NCBI GenBank assembly: GCA_025024175.1
Contig: QCXZ01000086.1
Coordinates: forward strand, 18,442,245-18,506,244
Direction: 5' to 3'
Source of the DNA: Rhyzopertha dominica
Lineage: Eukaryota > Arthropoda > Insecta > Coleoptera > Bostrichidae
DNA: 64,000 bases
Shown: positions 3,586 to 38,786 of the stretch, piece by piece
How the letters are laid out: every line of letters begins with the position of its first letter
Position numbering within the stretch: the first letter of the stretch is position 1
Position numbers and translations under genes: made by a program
The notes under the pieces: generated by a model
Databases searched by the model: none
What the model was told of the DNA's origin: nothing
What the model saw: the letters and a program-made list of their open reading frames with translations, nothing else

Positions 3586-3828
3586 CTATAGAAGTACAAC
3601 AAATATAGCAATTTTAAATTTTTGCATGACAGTTAAACATTTGGATCTCAGTTATACTGTAAAAGTTTCTCTATGACTGTATTGAATTCTAGAACATCAT
3701 TAGGCCTGTTTCTCTTTTCTTTATTAAAGTTGATATTAGCAAAACACAAGGTGACACTACCTTAAAGTACACTCAGAAAAATATGTGGTTAAAGTAGCTA
3801 AAATTTTGGTGATCCTCACAATATTGTA

Positions 3829-17939: not shown

Positions 17940-18304
17940 AATTAGATAATTATGAGTCTCACAAATATTATAGGTATAAGGCTTATTATTCTAAATATTT
18001 GTTCAGTTTTAAATATAATTCTACAGCATAGTTTGACATCTATAAGAATAAGGATTATTTTTAAAAATATATTTTTAGTTTAATTATAATTTACTATATG
18101 CGCACTTCCCAAGCACGCTTGATGACTTAGGCAACTTTNTTATTAACATACACGCATAAAGTTTCAACTANACCATCAATTCCATTAAGGTAAGCGCTTT
18201 TTTTTATAAGCCAGCATAATTTTCCAATATATACACATATAATATTTACTAGTGGGTATAGGGAGCATTACTTAGTCAAAAAAAGGAAAAAACCGAATAT
18301 CTAC
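17940..18304. other. AT-rich spacer before the gypsy element
   Basis: It would hold the 3' UTR of the small ORF. A TTCAATGG-like hairpin or terminator is not evident, and nothing else is recognisable. It ends in TCTAC (18300-18304), which is one copy of the gypsy target duplication. Confidence 0.4.
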
Positions 18305-18487
18305 TGTAATGTTCTTATGGGTTCGTGGAAATTAAACACTGTATCACAATTTAAACCCTTATTATTAAACACCCGAAATCACGTCTACATGCACCTTCAG
18401 CTTACTCTCTATCACTCCTGTCTTGTACCTGCGCATCGCAACTCCCCCACATATTCATACATCCTTGAAAGATATACATATACTACA
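18305..18487 (-). repeat. gypsy 3' LTR with adjacent polypurine tract
   Basis: Begins TG and ends CA on both strands (TGTAATGTTC at 18305, ATACTACA at 18487). The next bases (18488-18499) read CTTTTCCCCCCG, which on the element's strand is a G/A polypurine tract directly abutting the LTR, marking this as the 3' LTR. Confidence 0.9.
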
Positions 18488-18510
18488 CTTTTCCCCCCGT
18501 AACAAATAAT

Positions 18511-18768
18511 TTAATGTGCAACGGTATATCTTTCAGGAGCTTTCCTAATTCTAATCGGTCTATCAAGCCTAGATGCATTTTCTGTCAGTGACACTTCTTC
18601 CGCTTCGTCTCGGACAGGTAAACTTGGAAATTGCGAAATTGGTTGCAATTCTTTTGATGGAACATGCTTTCTTATTTGGTTTACATGCCTTTTCCAAATT
18701 CTCCCATCCGGCAACTCTACAATATAAGTACGACATCCCAAAAAGGGGTACAAAAAACTAGAACACAC
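18511..18768 (-). CDS. gypsy integrase C-terminal tail
   Basis: Reads TYIVELPDGRIWKRHVNQIR, the small C-terminal barrel (GPY/F-like region) of gypsy integrases, then an acidic tail ending PERYTVAH. Only this end of integrase remains; the zinc-binding and catalytic domains are gone, replaced upstream by the nucleoprotein-like gene. It sits next to the polypurine tract, as expected for the 3' end of pol. Confidence 0.75.
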   Translation of the reverse strand: MCSSFLYPFLGCRTYIVELPDGRIWKRHVNQIRKHVPSKELQPISQFPSLPVRDEAEEVSLTENASRLDRPIRIRKAPERYTVAH

Positions 18769-18871
18769 AAAGGCACAATGCCTGCAGTCAAAAAAGAGAG
18801 ATCATCTGTTTCATAAGGAACTAAAGAGACGCGATTCAGTCTCACAAACGAAAAAGGGCCTTGAGGGCAGT

Positions 18872-20308
18872 CCTAAGTTTCACCCATGTCATCGACATCA
18901 GGGCGATAGATTCTTGAACGACGGGGCGTCTGTTGACGGGTGGTTTGGGTTGCAGTACCACTAACTTCCCCTGTGCCGACTCCCCTACTTCTGGTCATGT
19001 ATCTGTGGCCAGGGGTAGACGGGCTTGTACCAGGGGCTGGCCTCGGTTGCTCTCGGGCAGGAGGAGGTTTGGTCCTGCCCTCAGATCGTCCGCCTCTACC
19101 AGTTGCAGGTGCAGGAGGAGGTGGTGGAGGTGGTGGCTGATGGGGTCCACCATGCCCACCTGTATCGTCCCCATCACTCCTGCGTCTTGCAGGGCCTCCC
19201 GGACTTACCGAAAATCCTGACGGAGAGCCTGGATGGCCTCGTCATTCAGCCCTTCCATTTGCACAATGCTATTAAGGGCATTTCGTGCGTTCTGCTGCGA
19301 CTGGAGTTTGTAAGACTGCAACAGCTGCTGCCAATCGGGGTCGTAGTCCTCATAGCTTTCTACTTTATGTACTTCCAGGTGAGGAGATGCTGCAAGGGTA
19401 GAGCGCCCAAATATTTGACGAATAAAGGTTCCGACCCTTCCTAGATAGACTTCCATCCCTGTATCTTGATAGTGAGCTCTGGGGGCTCCTGTTAGATAGG
19501 AAGCTCCTATATGGAACGTAGCAGGTGCTTCTCTGATCATAGCCACCACAGGCGGTATTTCTGAAAGGTTGGAGGCATTGGGACAGTGCTTCACCAGTGG
19601 ACTTCTGGCAAGCCGTTTAGCCCCTTCAAAGGCGATCACAGCTCTGTGCGTCCCAGCCGGAAACGAGCCGAATCGTAATGCTGAGTCCGCGGCCAACTGA
19701 AAAGTGAATCCTCCAGCGAGAACCGGGTCACTAACCATGAGTAGTCCTTCGATCCCCGCAGCATGGAGCATGTATATCGTACTAATCCAGTGTCCTATAG
19801 TGTGGGCGGCTGTCACGATGGTCTGGTGCACATTTCTGCCATACTGTGCCTCAAGTACTTTCCTCACATAGCCAGCAACCTCTCCTTGCCCGGTGTGGTG
19901 ATTTGTCAGCCACCAGTTGGCCTTCGTGGCAACTAGCACGGTGACTGCACGCTGGATAGCGTCTATTGTGCAACATTGGTTTAGAATAGGAAGATCAGCT
20001 GCTAAAGGCGCGACAGCTGTCTGTACTTCCCTCCAATCACCATCAGGATTAGGGCCAACTCGTCTGATTAGCTTGCAAAATATAGCAGCCGCAGCACCGG
20101 CAATGTATAGATCTCGGGCTTGGTGGTCGACAGTTCTCCATCTTGTCAACGCCCAATTCATTGCATGTTGAGCCGCGTCTTCAATCTTGCCGTTGGTCAG
20201 AACAGGTAGCCGGTCGTCTTCGGCAAGCCTAGGGTCTGTCCCCACAGCAAGCCCTGCCTCCATCGTGCCATTAATGTCTGGAAGGAAGATCTGCAGTTGC
20301 GTAGCCAT
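18872..20308 (-). pseudogene. Nucleoprotein-like gene of probable negative-strand RNA virus origin
   Basis: A GC-rich ORF of 367 residues starts at ATG 20308 (MATQLQIFLPDINGTMEAG) and runs to 19205. Past it, a frame change near 19210-19260 leads to a Pro/Gly/Arg-rich tail that ends at a stop at 18872-18874 after YRPDVDDMGET. The composition (an Ala-rich helical core with motifs such as WWLTNHHTGQGEV, TAAHTIGHWISTIYML and YLGRVGTFIRQIFG, then a disordered basic tail) fits an RNA-virus nucleocapsid protein that coats genomic RNA. I lean to a chuvirus-like (Jingchuvirales) origin from general resemblance, but cannot test it. The core ORF is intact, and base use differs strongly from the AT-rich flanks. 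It lies inside a gypsy element, so it would be expressed from the LTR. Confidence 0.5.
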
Positions 20309-20417
20309 AGTCCTTGGTTAACAGTCGACAAAACCAGAGATAATAAAAATAGTCTATACAAAGTCGAAAGCGAAGTTACCACAATGGGTCAACAACCACA
20401 ACAGTTTGGGAAGGCTG

Positions 20418-20892
20418 GGTTGTTTCAATAAGGGAACAATCTCTTTAAATGTAAATAAGGATGCAGAACCTAAATTTTTAAGAGCTCGTACTTTGCCCTT
20501 TGCTCTTCGGAGAAAGGTTGAAGTAGAAATCGCTCGATTAGTAAAAGAAAATATTTTAACTCCGGTAGATTATAGCGATTGGGCNACGCCCATAGTGCCG
20601 GTTCTCAAAGCTGACGGAACGGTGAGGATTTGTGGGGACTTTAAAGCCACGATTAATCCAATTTTAAAACCAGATCAGTATCCGTTGCCGCAAATAGAAT
20701 ATTTATTTTCCAAGTTACAGGGCGGTGTGACCTTTTCTAAAGTTGATTTGAAACATGCATATCAACAAGTTTGTATTTCTGAAGATTCCAAACGATATGT
20801 AACAATTTCTACACATAAAGGGTTGTTTCGATATAACAGATTGCCTTTTGGGGTTTCATGTGGCCCTTCAAAATTTCAACGTATAATGGAGT
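20418..20892 (+). pseudogene. gypsy RT N-terminal fragment, inverted
   Basis: On the plus strand, opposite to the rest of the element: TISLNVNKDAEPKFLRAR, VEVEIARLVKENILTPVDYS, VRICGDFKATINPI, FSKVDLKHAYQQVCI (first catalytic D) and RLPFGVSCGPSKFQRIM. It stops before the YXDD box. The inversion's left end duplicates the linker sequence GGGTTGTTTCAATAAGG, which is present in inverse orientation at about 20931-20945. The right end abuts the duplicated nucleoprotein tail. It cannot make RT. Confidence 0.85.
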
Positions 20893-20930
20893 CGTTGACG
20901 GGTGGTTTGGGTTGCAGTACCACTAACTTC

Positions 20931-21461
20931 CTTATTGAAACAACCCATGCCTTCCGAAAAAAGGTTTCTGTATTTTCTGTACAATATTTCTAACTCATCA
21001 CTGTGCTCAGTGTGATTAATTCCGTTTATCTCAATACCTAATGGCCCTAACCATTCTCTACCTAACAAAGGGGGTCCATTTGACCTAACCACGTACATAT
21101 TTCCCGTAAAAGAGCGACCCTTAAATTCTACGTTAACATTGGCCATACCGTAAGTACACATTTTTCCGCCTGTATAACCTAACAAATATTTATTTGTCTG
21201 TTTTAACGGTATATGTGAAAAATCTTTATTGTACATCCAGTCTGGCATTACGGTGACGGACGCTCCCGTGTCAATTTCCAAATCCACTACTTTGTTTGCT
21301 ACACTCAATTTTACCACTATTGGCGGATTTGCACTTAAGTTATTTGTGGAAATTTGAAACAAAGATGCAATCTCCTCTGATTCGACAAAATGGGTTGCTG
21401 GCTTTTGTGAACTGCTACTGCCGGATTTCACCACTCTTCTATTTTTACAAACCCACATCAA
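20931..21461 (-). CDS. gypsy aspartic protease
   Basis: Follows gag in the -1 frame. The active site is LEIDTGASVTVMPDW, and GNMYVVRSNGPPLLGREW follows in the flap and C-terminal strand region. The frame then reads the linker towards RT (YRKYRNLFSEGMGCFNK) and stops matching gypsy at about 20931. There it runs for 38 bases into a copy of the nucleoprotein-gene tail (EVSGTATQTTRQ) and then the inverted RT block. The protease itself has no stops, so it may be functional. Confidence 0.82.
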
Positions 21462-22213
21462 GTGTCCTTTTTTCCACAGGCGTTACATGTATAGTTTTGG
21501 AACTTACATTTGTTTGAAGAATGATTCCTCTTACCGCATACGCTGCATGGATACGACCTTTGTTGATGTGGAACTCCAAATTTCCTAGTGCCGCTAGTGC
21601 CTGCCGCTCCAACCCTGTTTACTTCAGCTTCTTGTTTGATGGAAACTGCCATAGGGCCCTCCTCTGCTCCATAGTTTTGCCTAGTAGCCTCTTTGTTGAC
21701 TGCTATTTGCAAAGCTTGTTCACTAGTGAGTTTGGTGACATCCTCTTCAAAGATTCGGTCCATAATGTTCTTAACACCAAATCCCATTATGAACCGGTCA
21801 CGTATCACTACTGCCAGTTCAGCACTGAATTTACAATGCGCTGCTAAACTCTTCACGCGTGCCATCCACTCGTTTGCGGATTCCGATTCACTTTTGCAAG
21901 CCGTATAAAATTTATATCGTGCTGCAAAGTACGATTTTGCTGGCTGAAGGTGTTTATTTAATAACTCCGTGATTTGTACGTAAGTCTTTGTCTCTGGNAA
22001 ATCGGGAACGCACAAGTTATAAATTAACTTATAACACGTTTCATTAAATGTGTTTAACAACAAAGCGCGTTTCCGTTCTTCGCTAGTGATAGCATTTGCC
22101 ACAAAAAACTGCTCAAGGCGAGCTCGGAATACTGTCCAGTCCGTATTCTCATTGAACTCGCGCAGATAGCCCAAAAAACCTATATCGGGTGTACCTGGAT
22201 TCGGCATTTTCAC
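21458..22213 (-). CDS. gag: gypsy Gag with zinc knuckles
   Basis: Gag of about 250 residues from MKMPNPGTPDIGFLGYL. The capsid-like core contains WTVFRARLEQFFVANAI and an ANEWMARVKSLAAHC helix. The C-terminus has one CCHC knuckle (CSVCGKRNHSSNKC) and the start of a second (CNACGKK). The frame stops inside the second knuckle. The full knuckle, CGKKGHLMWVC, is completed in the -1 frame, which leads into protease. It would package element RNA. One ambiguous base is present and there are no other breaks. Confidence 0.85.
   Translation of the reverse strand: MKMPNPGTPDIGFLGYLREFNENTDWTVFRARLEQFFVANAITSEERKRALLLNTFNETCYKLIYNLCVPDXPETKTYVQITELLNKHLQPAKSYFAARYKFYTACKSESESANEWMARVKSLAAHCKFSAELAVVIRDRFIMGFGVKNIMDRIFEEDVTKLTSEQALQIAVNKEATRQNYGAEEGPMAVSIKQEAEVNRVGAAGTSGTRKFGVPHQQRSYPCSVCGKRNHSSNKCKFQNYTCNACGKKDT
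21467..21473 (-). promoter_or_regulatory. Candidate -1 ribosomal frameshift site
   Basis: On the element's strand the gag codons GGA AAA AAG contain the slippery heptamer A-AAA-AAG. A -1 slip here moves translation from gag into the protease frame in the middle of the second zinc knuckle. No downstream pseudoknot was modelled. Confidence 0.55.
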
Positions 22214-22270
22214 TTTTCACCTTTACACTGTAATTTATTAACAAGTTTTAATCAACCACCTCGTCGCCAC

Positions 22271-22454
22271 TGTAATGTTCTTATGGGTTCGTGGAAATTA
22301 AACACTGTATTACAATTTAAACCCTTATTTATTAAACACCCGAAATCACGTCTACATGCACCTTCAGCTTACTCTCTATCACTCCTGTCTTGTACCTGCG
22401 CATCGCAACTCCCCCACATATTCATACATCCTTGAAAGATATACATATACTACA
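22271..22454 (-). repeat. gypsy 5' LTR with primer-binding site
   Basis: Copy of the 18305-18487 LTR. Immediately inside it, on the element's strand, is TGGCGACGAGGTGG (22269 downward), which has the TGG start expected of a tRNA primer-binding site. Which tRNA is used is not certain. Confidence 0.88.
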
Positions 22455-22459
22455 TCTAC

Positions 22460-30021: not shown

Positions 30022-32136
30022 TTAAAATTAGCTACAATAAGAAAATCAGACTTGCACAAATAAATGCAGCGAGAAGTGCGACCGTGACGCAGGAAATTGT
30101 ACGCGTAGCGGGTGAACTCAAGCTGGACGTTGTATGTGTACAGGAACCTCACACAAAAAACGGCAAAATGCTAGGTGTGCCCGTCGGGATAAAGCAGATA
30201 GGAATAGGAGATCGGCCAATGGCGGTCACGCTAATTTTCAGTGGAGATGTAGGGACAACGCTAATAAGACAGCACACTAACAGCCACTGCGTGTGTGTGG
30301 AAATAAAAATTAAAGACCTGAATGTTATACTGGTTAACCAGTACTTTCAATTCGCGGACACTATTCAGGGACATCTCGAAAGCACCAGAAAGNTTCTGGA
30401 CGACTACAGGACGAGCGAGGTGATCATCATGGCGGACGTGAACGCAAAGTCAGTAATGTGGCATTGCGATAACACGGACGAGAGAGGAGAAGAGGTAGAA
30501 CTGATGATCGCCGAGAGAGCTCCACTGTGCTAAATAGAGAAAATAACCCACCAACCTACAGGGGAAGAGTAGGGGTAAATTCAAATATTGACGTTACCCT
30601 TGCCAGTGAGGGCGTAAGCGCTGCCATAAGAGGATGGAAGGTGGAGGACATGCTAACCTCCAGTGATCATAACATGATACACATGTGTGTCGAGAATACA
30701 CACGATCGTATGGAAGAAGGGGGCGGTGCTACTAAAAAGTACAACCTCCGGAAAGCCAACTGGCAGCGCTTGCAAAGCGAATATGCCGAGCAGCCACCGA
30801 TAGAGATGGGACACCCTAATGAAATGGCTAGAGCCTTAGTGCTAAAAATTAGGAGGGCAATGGATGCCTCGATCCCAAAGGTACGTAGAAATACGACCAA
30901 AACACGTAGTCGGTGGTCTGACAGATTAACGGAACTAAGAAAGGAAGCAAGAAGAAAAAGGAAGCAATATCAGAGAGCCCTGACAGCAGACGAGAGGGAA
31001 GAGGGTTTGCAGGATTACAGGCGAGCGAAACGAGCCTATGAAAAGGAGCTGTGGGAGGAGAAAGCGCGCTCATGGAGCGAATTCATCGGAAGCTGCATGG
31101 AAAGGGACATATGGGGAATGCCGTACAAACTAGTAAGTGAACGAGTAAAAACATCTGAAGGGTTGTCTACCCTTCGCACAAGCGAAGGTACTATGACGAA
31201 GGACTGGAGAGAGACAATGAAAGTATTGATGGACACACTGCTGCCATCCGATTCTCCGCAAGGCGAGAGTGCCCTGCAGGAGAGCCTGAGATTGGACATG
31301 GCTCGAGAGTACGGTGCGAACCATACGAGCCCACCTTTCAGCAGAGAGGAGGTGTCGGCTGCCGTGAATATGCTGAAGAAGAGAAAGGCTCCGGGACTGG
31401 ACGAGATACAGGCGGAGGTGCTACACTTTCTGAAAGAGGAAATAGCTGGGGATCTCCTTGCAGTGTTCAATCGCTGTTTGACACGGAGGAAATTCCCCAA
31501 CGTCTGGAAAAGAGCGGACCTGGTCGTGCTATACAAGGGTGGAGACAAAGATCCGGAGGCGGCGAAGTCATACCGACCGATCTGCCTCCTAAGCAACCTC
31601 GGGAAGACACTAGAAAGATTAGTCTGTGGAAGACTGAAACAACACAGGCAAGAGATGGGGTTGCTCCACCCGGACCAGTACGGATTCAGGCCTGGCCGAT
31701 CAACAGAGAACGCGCTGAACAGGTTGGTGCTGGAAGTCGAAAGTGTAGACGCCAAACACGCGCTCGTGATATTCGTGGACATCGCGGGTGCGTTTGACAA
31801 TTTATGGTGGCCATCCCTGTTTAAAGAACTGCGGGACATGCGGTGCCCGGGTGATGTGTATGGACTCTTAAAAAGTTACTGTCAGGACAGGTATGTGATC
31901 ATGCGGTGTCCTGGTGACGAGGTATCAAAGTGCGCGACCAAAGGGTGTCCTCAGGGATCGATCTGCGGACCGGTCTTCTGGGACATCATAATGGACAAGC
32001 TACTGAGATCAATTGGCAGTGGAAACAGTGTTAGGTCGACGATAGCCTATGCGGACGACCTAGCACTCCTGATAGAGGGAAACTCTCGAGCAGACCTGGA
32101 AAGGAAAGTTGAAATGGCTATGACTGAGTTGGACGC
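30022..32136 (+). pseudogene. R1-like LINE ORF2: endonuclease and truncated RT
   Basis: The endonuclease starts at about 30048 (RLAQINAARSATVTQEIV), with VVCVQEPHT (catalytic E), EVIIMADVNAKSVMWHC (D and N) and TSSDHNMIHM (catalytic D-H). A frame change sits near 30530. The RT follows: MLKKRKAPGLDEIQAEVL, YRPICLLSNLGKTLE, YGFRPGRSTENAL, IFVDIAGAFDNLWWPSLF (catalytic D), KGCPQGSICGPVFWDIIMD, and TIAYADDLALL (catalytic DD). The CPQGS motif and overall motif order fit the R1 clade. The protein stops matching 30 residues after the catalytic box; the thumb, C-terminal zinc knuckle and 3' UTR are absent. Confidence 0.85.
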
Positions 32137-33036
32137 GGTACCCGGCTAGATAAACGCTTATCCAGAGGAGATCCTGGAATCAAGCAGCTTGATAAAGCTT
32201 GTAAAGAGCACGATATTGCGTACAGGGATAACAGCGGTTTATCGAAACGTTACGAAGCCGATCGTATTCTCGAACACAGGGCTTGGGAAAGAGTTGTTTC
32301 CAAGGACGCTGGATTTAAGGAAAAAGCTGCATCTTATTTAGTTACAAACGTAATGAAGTTGAAGCGGCGTTTAGGTTTGGGTTGTAGAAGCAATGTTGTT
32401 GCTGTTAACAACAGCTCTCAACCTGCAAGAAAAAAAAACAAGGAAAACGCGGGCGAAGAAAAGGAACCGTACAGGTCTGGGATGTGCACAATATCCGAAA
32501 AAAAAAACAGGAGAGGAAATGTTCGAAGGAAGAAGAAAACTAAACTGAACAGAAAGACTGGCGGTAAATTATCTTTCCAGTCTAATTTTATACAAAAGAT
32601 ACGTAATGCCTTGAGGAACGGAATCCGCTCAAAATCTAACGTCAGCAGTGGTGGGGGTGATGTACAACAGGCGGTAAAAATTGCTCTGCGGGCAGCACGT
32701 CGAGCACTAAAGGCTATGGGTGGGAGGCAGCGCGTTCAAATTCCACGAGTGATACCTGTCCCAAAAACCGGCGGTGTTTTGCCTCTCATACCGATATTTG
32801 CCGGACTCTCAGCGCTAGGATCTCTGGCCGGATCGGTTTCTGGTATAGCTAAAGCCGTACATGATGCTAGAATAGCACGATCGCAGTTGGAGGAAGCGAA
32901 ACGTCATAATGCGGCTATGGAAAGTAATTCTGCTGCGGTGTCTGTCCCTGTTAGTGGTAATGGATTGCACTTGAAACCATATCGAAAAGGCTTTGGTTTA
33001 TATCTGACCAACTACAAGAACTTGTCAAAAAACTAA
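32137..33036 (+). pseudogene. Polinton phospholipase A2-like plus hydrophobic protein
   Basis: Open from the LINE junction to TAA at 33034-33036. The first 70 residues match the parvovirus-type phospholipase A2 domain seen in Polinton and densovirus structural proteins: the catalytic His-Asp pair lies in DKACKEHDIAYRD. The calcium-loop glycines are cut off at the 5' end. Then comes KRRLGLGC, a basic linker, and a hydrophobic stretch, GGVLPLIPIFAGLSALGSLA, typical of Polinton minor virion protein X. The end is HLKPYRKGFGLYL. It probably helps virions cross membranes in the intact family. Its start is missing here. Confidence 0.75.
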
Positions 33037-37277: not shown

Positions 37278-37549
37278 ATGGGTTTCGTTTATAAAAAAAA
37301 TAATGTTTCAATGGTTATAAACCGAAGGGGAGATGACAGTGGCAAATCTAAAAAGAAATCAAACAATAANNGAAGGCGATCTATGATCCATGCTCCCAGT
37401 ATTGTACTGAACGCACAGCAGTTACAACGAGCGCAGTAGCCACACAACAACGACAGCAGCAGCAGTTTCGATCTAGAGCTGCCGTATAAAATTTCAAAGC
37501 GAGATATTGAATTTCTAAAATCCATAGGATTGCGACCTCGACAACCATG
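37278..37549 (+). pseudogene. Small Polinton ORF
   Basis: ATG at 37278 reads MGFVYKKNNVSMVINRRGDD, followed by a basic segment with two ambiguous bases, a TAG at about 37437, and then YKISKRDIEFLKSIGLR, ending with a stop that overlaps the major capsid ATG (ATGA). Small basic proteins with a closing FLKSLG-like motif occur at this place in other Polintons. The role is unknown. Confidence 0.45.
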
Positions 37550-38786
37550 ACATTCAACAGCAATTTCACCAATAGCGAGAAACTTGAAGTATTCGAAGAG
37601 CCAGTCTTTGATGATTCACTCGTTAGCCTGCATGAACATACATACAAGCCTTATGGATCGCCGCAATTCAACAATTCCGATGAGGTGCGAATCGCCGTCA
37701 ACTTTCAAGATCTGATACTTGACATTTCCAACAGTTATCTGTACATTGAGGGTACGTTTACACCCAGTGAAGCCAACAGAATTTGCTACCTTACAAATAA
37801 CACCTTTGCGTTTCTATTCGATGAGATTCGCTATGAGCTAGGCGGTGAACAGGTTGCTCTAGTACGAAAACCAGGTATTACGACGGCACTAAAAACAATG
37901 GTGTCATTTGACAAATCACATGTACAAGCTCTTATTACAACCGGTTGGGGTTTGAAGGTGGACAACCAATGTCTGCAGGATGAGACCAGTCATACGTTCA
38001 GCGGTAAATTGCCCCTGAGCTACTTGATGGGCTTTGCTGAGGACTACAACAAAGGCATCGTAAACGTCAAACACGAGCTCATCCTCATCATTGCACGCAG
38101 TTTCAAAAACAGTTACTTTGGAGAAGTCGATGCTGAGGTTAAAATTAACAAGATTGAATGGAAGATTCGACATGTGATACCGGAGGATCGTTATAAGCTA
38201 AAACTTTTAACACGTATGAAGAAAAATGTAATTGTAAAGGTGCCTTATCGCATGTGGGATTTATATGAACTCCCTGCATTACGTCAGACCTCCTCCGATG
38301 TGTGGTCCTTGAAAACGAGCACTAATCTTGAAAAACCCCGTTATGTAGTTATAGCATTCCAAAATGCTAACAATTATGACAATCGACAGGCAGATGCCAC
38401 CAAGTTTCTACATGTTAATGTTAGCGATATTCGTCTCTTTCTAAATTCTAGCGTATATCCATACGAGCGATGGAATTTAAATTTCAGCAAGAAACTATGC
38501 TCCAGCTTATTATGCATATGAGCAATTCCAAAGTAGCTATTACAACCGGTCAACATCTGATTCGCTCATGGATTATGGTGAATTTCTCTTAAATCCTGTA
38601 TTTGTAATTGATTGCTCTCATCAAGCTGATGCTTTAAAATCGTCAATTGTCGATATCAAGATTGAATTTGAAACACGCGAGCAAGCCTTTCCAGCCAACA
38701 CCAAGGTATATGCTATTGTTTTTCACGATGCCTTTTTAACATACAACTCTCTAGATGGCATTGTTAGCAGAATGACCTCACTGTAA
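37547..38786 (+). pseudogene. Polinton major capsid protein
   Basis: Double jelly-roll major capsid protein, which forms the icosahedral shell in intact polintoviruses. Start MTFNSNFTNSEKLEVFEEP. Recognisable motifs are FQDLILDISNSYLYIEG, FAFLFDEIRYELGGEQVAL, KPGITTALKTMVSF and KIEWKIRHVIPEDRYKLK. The frame is open for 324 codons, then shifts near 38495. The remainder, with LMDYGEFLLNPVFVID and a stop at 38784-38786, is in another frame. Total length of about 410 residues is near the family norm. One frameshift is the only break. Confidence 0.75.

Follow-up and report, generated by a model that had tools for sequence, protein, structure and literature searches.

Structure of the chimeric gypsy element

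We analysed a 64,000-nt stretch of Rhyzopertha dominica DNA (the window, in which all coordinates are given unless a contig is named), which is part of the 26-Mb contig C86. The analysis confirmed that positions 18305-22454, on the minus strand, are occupied by a Ty3/gypsy element in which a nucleoprotein gene has taken the place of most of pol. According to its predicted fold, for which a confident model was obtained, the 367-codon open reading frame (ORF) of this gene would encode the nucleoprotein (N) of a negative-strand virus, nearest to Qinviridae (Muvirales). The locus has the following features, with the basis of each in brackets (LTR, long terminal repeat; RT, reverse transcriptase; UTR, untranslated region).

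18300-18304, no strand: left copy of the target site duplication TCTAC (flank comparison)
18305-18487, minus: 3′ LTR, 183 bp (LTR comparison and sister copies)
18488-18498, minus: polypurine stretch GGGGGGAAAAG, adjoining the 3′ LTR (sequence at the LTR edge)
18488-18740, minus: integrase C-terminal tail and 3′ end of pol (sister map)
18741-~18871, no strand: filler of about 130 bp, neither this gypsy nor a recognised virus, its border with the virus approximate
18872-20411, minus: copy of a qinvirus-like plus-sense RNA, with the 5′ UTR from TCCCAAAC, the N ORF and a Pro/Arg-rich second frame (similarity among N copies)
18932-18969, minus: viral 38-bp stretch, repeated at 20894-20931 (exact direct repeat)
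19205-20308, minus: putative nucleoprotein ORF, 367 codons, unbroken (ORF list, structure model, fold search)
20412-20901, plus: piece of the RT of the element itself, in the opposite orientation to the other parts (RVT_1 and sister map)
20894-20931, minus: second copy of the 38-bp viral stretch, linking the inverted RT to the protease (exact repeat)
20930-22213, minus: gag and protease (ORFs, Pfam, sister copies)
22256-22269, minus: stretch resembling a primer binding site (PBS-like; TGGCGACGAGG; TGGCGACGAGGTGG), beside the 5′ LTR (sequence at the LTR edge)
22271-22454, minus: 5′ LTR, 184 bp (LTR comparison and sister copies)
22455-22459, no strand: right copy of the target site duplication TCTAC (flank comparison)

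The two LTRs are direct repeats ending in TG..CA, flanked by the short target duplication, and are 1 substitution and one 1-bp indel apart; the polypurine and PBS-like stretches, the latter read from the sequence, are located at their edges. On the integrase side, 18488-18740 was 97-99.6% identical to 7 sister copies across its full length, the family identity extending to 18740, and on the other side 20930-22270, holding gag and protease, was 97-99% identical to 8 sister copies. The protease piece matched Pfam RVP at 21.9 bits (cut-off 20.7), gag was assigned by position only, and no Rfam family was matched within the element. Since the match to sister elements is 97-99% over hundreds of bases, the gypsy pieces are not a chance likeness.

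Ten places of this gypsy family were retrieved for comparison, and both LTRs were found in 7 of them. All 7 were flanked by a perfect 5-bp duplication, and their LTR pairs differed by 0, 1, 0, 0, 3, 0 and 0 substitutions, respectively (for the last pair, only 151 of 184 bp of one LTR matched); six were 4355-4369 bp long and the seventh 2583 bp. In sister L046 (4.37 kb), the LTRs were identical and one 1307-codon frame contained the RT, RNase H and integrase domains in this order; to judge from this frame, L046 is a coding-complete gypsy in the same genome. The order gag, protease, RT, RNase H, integrase was thus seen via L046, the protease being recognised in the chimera piece. Taken together, the duplications, the few LTR substitutions and the coding-complete L046 indicate that the family is recently active and that the outer parts of the chimera are a normal insertion of it.

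On the map of sister L044, the order within the chimera was integrase tail, filler, virus, inverted RT, 38-bp viral repeat, protease and gag. The chimera has lost about 1.9 kb of pol: it retains gag, protease, the inverted RT piece (about 490 bp, 41.5 bits against RVT_1) and the integrase tail, but lacks RNase H and the greater part of RT and integrase. The frame, which is continuous in L046, is broken here between gag and protease. The chimera does not have the intact RT, RNase H and integrase within a single frame that an autonomous gypsy would have. The gypsy sequences flanking the virus map to points on the sister that are separated by about 1.9 kb, so that there is no duplicated target around the virus, and no poly(A) was found at the viral 3′ side in the window sequence. 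The RT and protease pieces overlap by 30 bp on the same map, which accounts for a short inverted repeat around the RT fragment, exact over 18 bp. The edges of 20894-20931 overlap both neighbours by short homology, and examination of the joints by eye revealed homologies of GGAAGGC (virus/RT), GTTGACGG (RT/viral repeat) and TTCC (viral repeat/protease region). Part of the filler (18756-18848) was 83% identical over 93 bp to C86:9925068-9925158, its sole other match found in the genome. The GC content was 0.53 in the viral stretch (18872-20411), versus 0.41 in gag-protease and 0.38 in the RT part. An earlier interpretation made without database searches (the sequence-only reading) had described near-identical LTRs, a perfect TCTAC duplication, gag and protease, an integrase tail with a polypurine tract, and the replacement of most of pol by a GC-rich 367-codon ORF followed by a Pro/Arg-rich tail, all of which agree with the structure given here; the inverted RT fragment, the repeated 38-bp viral stretch and the filler were not among the features it described.

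The nucleoprotein and its other copies in the genome

The structure predicted for N had a pLDDT of 89.9, and its best fold match in the viral library was Wenzhou qinvirus-like virus 1 (E 4.9e-26, TM 0.83, 32% identity); half of the library matches at E <= 0.001 (4 of 8) carry a qin name. The virus-like nucleoprotein of the sequence-only reading is therefore a viral nucleoprotein by fold, and the fold search points nearest to Qinviridae rather than to Jingchuvirales, Bornaviridae or Rhabdoviridae, the groups which that reading had named.

No family was found for the N ORF in NCBIfam or Pfam, nor was any Pfam family common to its 27-member alignment. Searches of PDB sequences gave nothing credible (two matches in one search, E 0.65 and 1.5, and none in another), and three scans of viral contigs yielded no relative. 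A protein-database search, in which only the 7996 candidates sharing most words were scored, detected 27 relatives at E <= 0.1, most of them without names, and an alignment-based second pass of this database found no additional protein. The relatives from named insects belong to Formica fusca, Diachasmimorpha longicaudata, Bemisia tabaci and Frankliniella fusca, and one of these four spans just 56% of the query. Qinviruses have a two-segment genome that includes an RNA polymerase, of which N alone is represented at this locus; the Mononeg_RNA_pol profile had 0 matches in the genome, the controls being likewise silent. Overlapping the end of N, the Pro/Arg-rich viral frame (18873-19241, minus strand; stop at 18873-18875) has its first in-frame ATG only near its end, and it may have been read by frameshifting in the virus.

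Genome searches covered the 479-Mb assembly (138 contigs), and the N copy counts are lower bounds: the DNA search missed the third copy, which the protein search alone found. By protein search, at least three N places were located, namely the chimera, C64:19560738-19561838 and C97:88806-89582. The C64 copy is full length and unbroken, with 85% identity to the chimera N, and its similarity to the chimera spans 18910-20411. The C97 copy is 82% identical over residues 1-259, and its sole reported stop sits where the virus yields to other DNA. The two loci outside the window are as follows.

C97:87306-91082 (L076), joints at 1390-1397 and about 2258: truncated N, whose viral 5′ end is fused to the integrase of another gypsy family
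C64:19556735-19566000 (L003), joints at 3721/3722 and 5207: full-length N and a long interspersed nuclear element (LINE)

In all three copies, the viral similarity starts at the same base, TCCCAAAC, and the preceding sequences are unrelated. In C97, a six-base gap precedes this point, and before it lies, in the same sense, sequence from another gypsy family, namely its RNase H-integrase region; 5 sister places match this stretch from the first base to base 1390 at 99% and then stop, and 0 of the 37 other matches listed extend past the joint. In C64, the viral 3′ side is fused to the 5′ end of the LINE. Five other places matched this LINE, of which 3 end earlier and 2 reach the joint (88%; 68-71%), the latter stopping within 4 bases of each other and 10-14 bases before the recognised viral similarity. 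Two copies (C97 and the chimera) are thus gypsy-joined at the viral 5′ end, and one (C64) is LINE-joined at the viral 3′ side. The coincidence of three starts within about 1.5 kb is hardly due to chance, and it is expected of an RT copying plus-sense viral RNA (mRNA or antigenome) to the end and then switching. It was also observed that the C64 LINE has long open ORF1 and ORF2, and that its 3′ part runs into another gene-like frame; the 3′ end of the LINE seems to have been lost.

Comparison of the N copies showed that the chimera and C64 have 783 of 1101 bases and 311 of 367 residues in common, with 53, 27 and 238 changes at codon positions 1, 2 and 3, respectively, and that the chimera and C97 have 209 of 250 residues the same. 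Between C64 and C97, 647 of 750 bases were the same, with a nonsynonymous rate (dN) of 0.037 and a synonymous rate (dS) of 0.675; no dS value could be obtained for either pair involving the chimera. This pattern would reflect purifying selection, most simply in the virus, selection in the host being less likely. Given this pattern and the different neighbours, the three copies appear to have been captured separately from related viruses and not to descend from a single fossil. A public contig (P0002) encodes an N with 364 of 367 residues the same as in the C64 copy, and may represent a circulating virus or another allele.

Origin of the chimera

We consider it probable that the element is a defective chimeric gypsy provirus, in which the viral N was captured by template switching during reverse transcription and before integration. 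Under this model, gypsy RNA would have been undergoing reverse transcription when the enzyme exited the integrase region, crossed a short third template (the filler) and copied a qinvirus-like plus-sense nucleoprotein RNA up to its extreme 5′ end. Short homologies would then have let it jump to an RT template of the opposite strand and on to another short stretch of the viral RNA, before it regained gypsy RNA at the protease and completed gag and the LTR; the product with intact LTRs would have been inserted once by the gypsy integrase, with the 5-bp duplication usual for the family. Template switching, also proposed in the sequence-only reading, is the best-supported origin in view of the short joint homologies and the common viral 5′ start. 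We infer the templates used and the order of events (chimera before integration), the observations being the anatomy, the joint homologies, the viral 5′ start shared by three N copies, the single chimera found and the confident nucleoprotein model. Entry of the virus before integration is favoured because the 5′ run-off and the repeated jumps fit reverse transcription, and because the other captures involve retroelements too. The single substitution between the LTRs (183 bases) suggests a recent insertion, which at a mutation rate near 3e-9 for insects would be of the order of a million generations old or less, with a wide error.

Several points weigh against such an origin. The intact LTRs and target duplication do not date the viral entry, as a later capture in a resident gypsy would leave both unchanged; break repair, too, typically leaves inverted pieces and short templated patches; and the filler of about 130 bp is without an explained source. 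Different segments have different nearest sisters, L049 being closest in the integrase tail, L044 in RT and gag, and L046 in the LTRs, a pattern allowed by both entry orders. The viral 3′ side of C97 adjoins repeats abundant on C97, C86 and C64, with no recognised gypsy end, and thus the C97 event was not finished as a clean LTR insertion, and a search for a target duplication around the LINE-virus unit of C64 found none. Moreover, DNA and protein searches detected no other place in the genome carrying the chimera's N within gypsy, and the gypsy-filler joint was absent from other places among the 35 matches listed, so that there is no evidence of multiplication of the chimera. The sequence-only reading had proposed that the chimera moved as a unit, and had suggested a genome search for further copies of these same gypsy-nucleoprotein junctions; none was found beyond the chimera, and movement as a unit is unsupported beyond the chimera's own integration, the LTRs and target duplication being the same if the virus had entered later.

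Capture after integration, although distinctly less probable, deserves the most attention among the alternatives. By this account, a double-strand break in a resident gypsy was repaired with viral complementary DNA (cDNA), other gypsy DNA and filler through microhomology-mediated template switching, with the loss of about 1.9 kb of pol. The inverted RT piece, the repeated 38-bp viral patch and the filler fit such repair, the LTRs and target duplication are silent on the order, only a single chimera was found, and local repeats border the C97 copy at its end, as could result from end joining of a cDNA. However, an independent viral cDNA would be needed, and retroelement sequence adjoins the other two N copies as well, all three starting at the same viral base, which argues for a reverse transcriptase at work and not random repair. 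Domestication of N as a host gene under selection, with an incidental gypsy neighbourhood, appears highly unlikely: 2 of the 3 copies are full-length and unbroken, the substitutions between copies are mainly at third positions, and four other insect genomes have relatives with a protein annotation, but evolution in the virus would produce a low dN/dS just as well, the neighbours differ from copy to copy with nothing common before the viral start, and one copy is truncated near residue 255. Least likely of all is an assembly chimera, to which two undetermined bases in the element (20585 and 21998) might point; the contig is 26 Mb long, precise LTRs and a target duplication enclose the whole, the inner joints have short homologies, and two analogous captures lie on other contigs.

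There is also little to favour a cargo gypsy that spreads and expresses N from its LTR as an antiviral gene or a source of PIWI-interacting RNA (piRNA), which we regard as very unlikely. The N frame is unbroken, the LTRs and the PBS-like and polypurine stretches are intact, and the coding-complete sister could mobilise the chimera in trans; against this, a second chimera was not found in the genome searches, the chimera lacks RNase H and most of RT and integrase, its gag-pol frame is interrupted, and the N start codon is located about 2 kb behind the LTR, after gag. This position leaves the LTR control of N, put forward in the sequence-only reading, unsupported, as is the antiviral role suggested there, and because gag comes first, N is unlikely to be made from the chimera by ordinary scanning translation. 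The chimera could now possibly be, at most, a heritable source of virus-matching RNA, piRNA included. It is improbable, if slightly less so than the cargo gypsy, that repeated retroelement capture of qinvirus-like N RNA (by gypsy twice and by a LINE once, each to the 5′ end), with a gypsy copy mobilisable in trans by the coding-complete sister, provides a transferable heritable antiviral RNA or decoy protein.

Relation to known captures

Similar switching of an LTR-element enzyme to a non-retroviral RNA has reportedly been seen in a chimera of an intracisternal A-type particle (IAP) and lymphocytic choriomeningitis virus (LCMV) by Geuking et al. in 2009, and in LTR-virus chimeric cDNA of Drosophila by Goic et al. 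in 2013; those cases are said to be experimental or somatic, whereas the present one is a germ-line fossil. In the mosquito BEL/Pao elements named Anakin, a chuvirus glycoprotein gene likewise lies inside the boundaries of an LTR retrotransposon as a result of recombination with a negative-strand virus (PMC7642597). Anakin differs in having a glycoprotein, a Pao backbone and many copies, 13 of them complete and likely autonomous (PMC7642597), whereas here a qinvirus-like N lies in a gypsy of which one defective copy was found, and multiplication of the virus gene by retrotransposition of the chimera was not seen. In Aedes aegypti, AeBunya1 is embedded within a full-length Pao-Bel element, for which the authors mention template switching, and non-retroviral integrated RNA virus sequences are enriched near Ty3/gypsy elements; in the portion of the paper at hand, the gypsy elements flank integrations and none is said to enclose one (PMC5497376). 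Glycoprotein genes of Jingchuvirales, present as endogenous viral elements (EVEs) in Hymenoptera and other orders, are also flanked by gypsy fragments, and a 2023 survey, as far as its accessible text goes, describes no clear capture by gypsy (PMC10084718), whereas here the RNA-virus gene lies within gypsy LTRs. For the same virus clade, the ant Camponotus floridanus is described as having an endogenous fragment of the qinvirus RNA-dependent RNA polymerase (RdRp; PMC6540820). Basal hexapods have qin EVEs as well, near which the authors, in the sections available, found no retroposons (PMC6955108); the ant sequence is RdRp, whereas the present one is N with retroelement joints.

A literature search over titles, abstract openings and text passages, outside preprints and most subscription papers, brought up related work but no gypsy-nucleoprotein or qinvirus-retroelement capture. 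Chimeras of LTR elements and EVEs are already known, and what appears new is an intact qinvirus-like N within gypsy LTRs, together with two parallel captures sharing one viral start. The route by which genes of RNA viruses without reverse transcription enter animal genomes is usually inferred from their neighbours. Here a capture is frozen with its joints, namely short homologies, back-and-forth patches and the same viral 5′ start beside three retroelement families, and a model of run-off and switching therefore becomes directly testable. The locus is also a record that a qinvirus-like virus infected the host lineage, and it adds a nucleoprotein to the endogenous sequences of qinviruses.

Apart from the chimera, open frames were noticed at 32128-33036 and 37511-38521 of the window and at about 4800-5560 of L064, which may resemble the phospholipase-like and double-jelly-roll capsid-like proteins of Maverick/adinto-like elements. 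A COX1 search gave a single 58-position match, with a stop in it. For a vitellogenin-like protein, one relative was found at E <= 1e-30, and the best vitellogenin frame matched the PDB vitellogenin 9enr of the honey bee; this gene content is in keeping with an insect, though it does not establish the order. In addition, the Vitellogenin_N profile had 13 matches in the genome (on C86, C1, C43 and C53), some in very long open frames, which hints at several vitellogenin-like genes.

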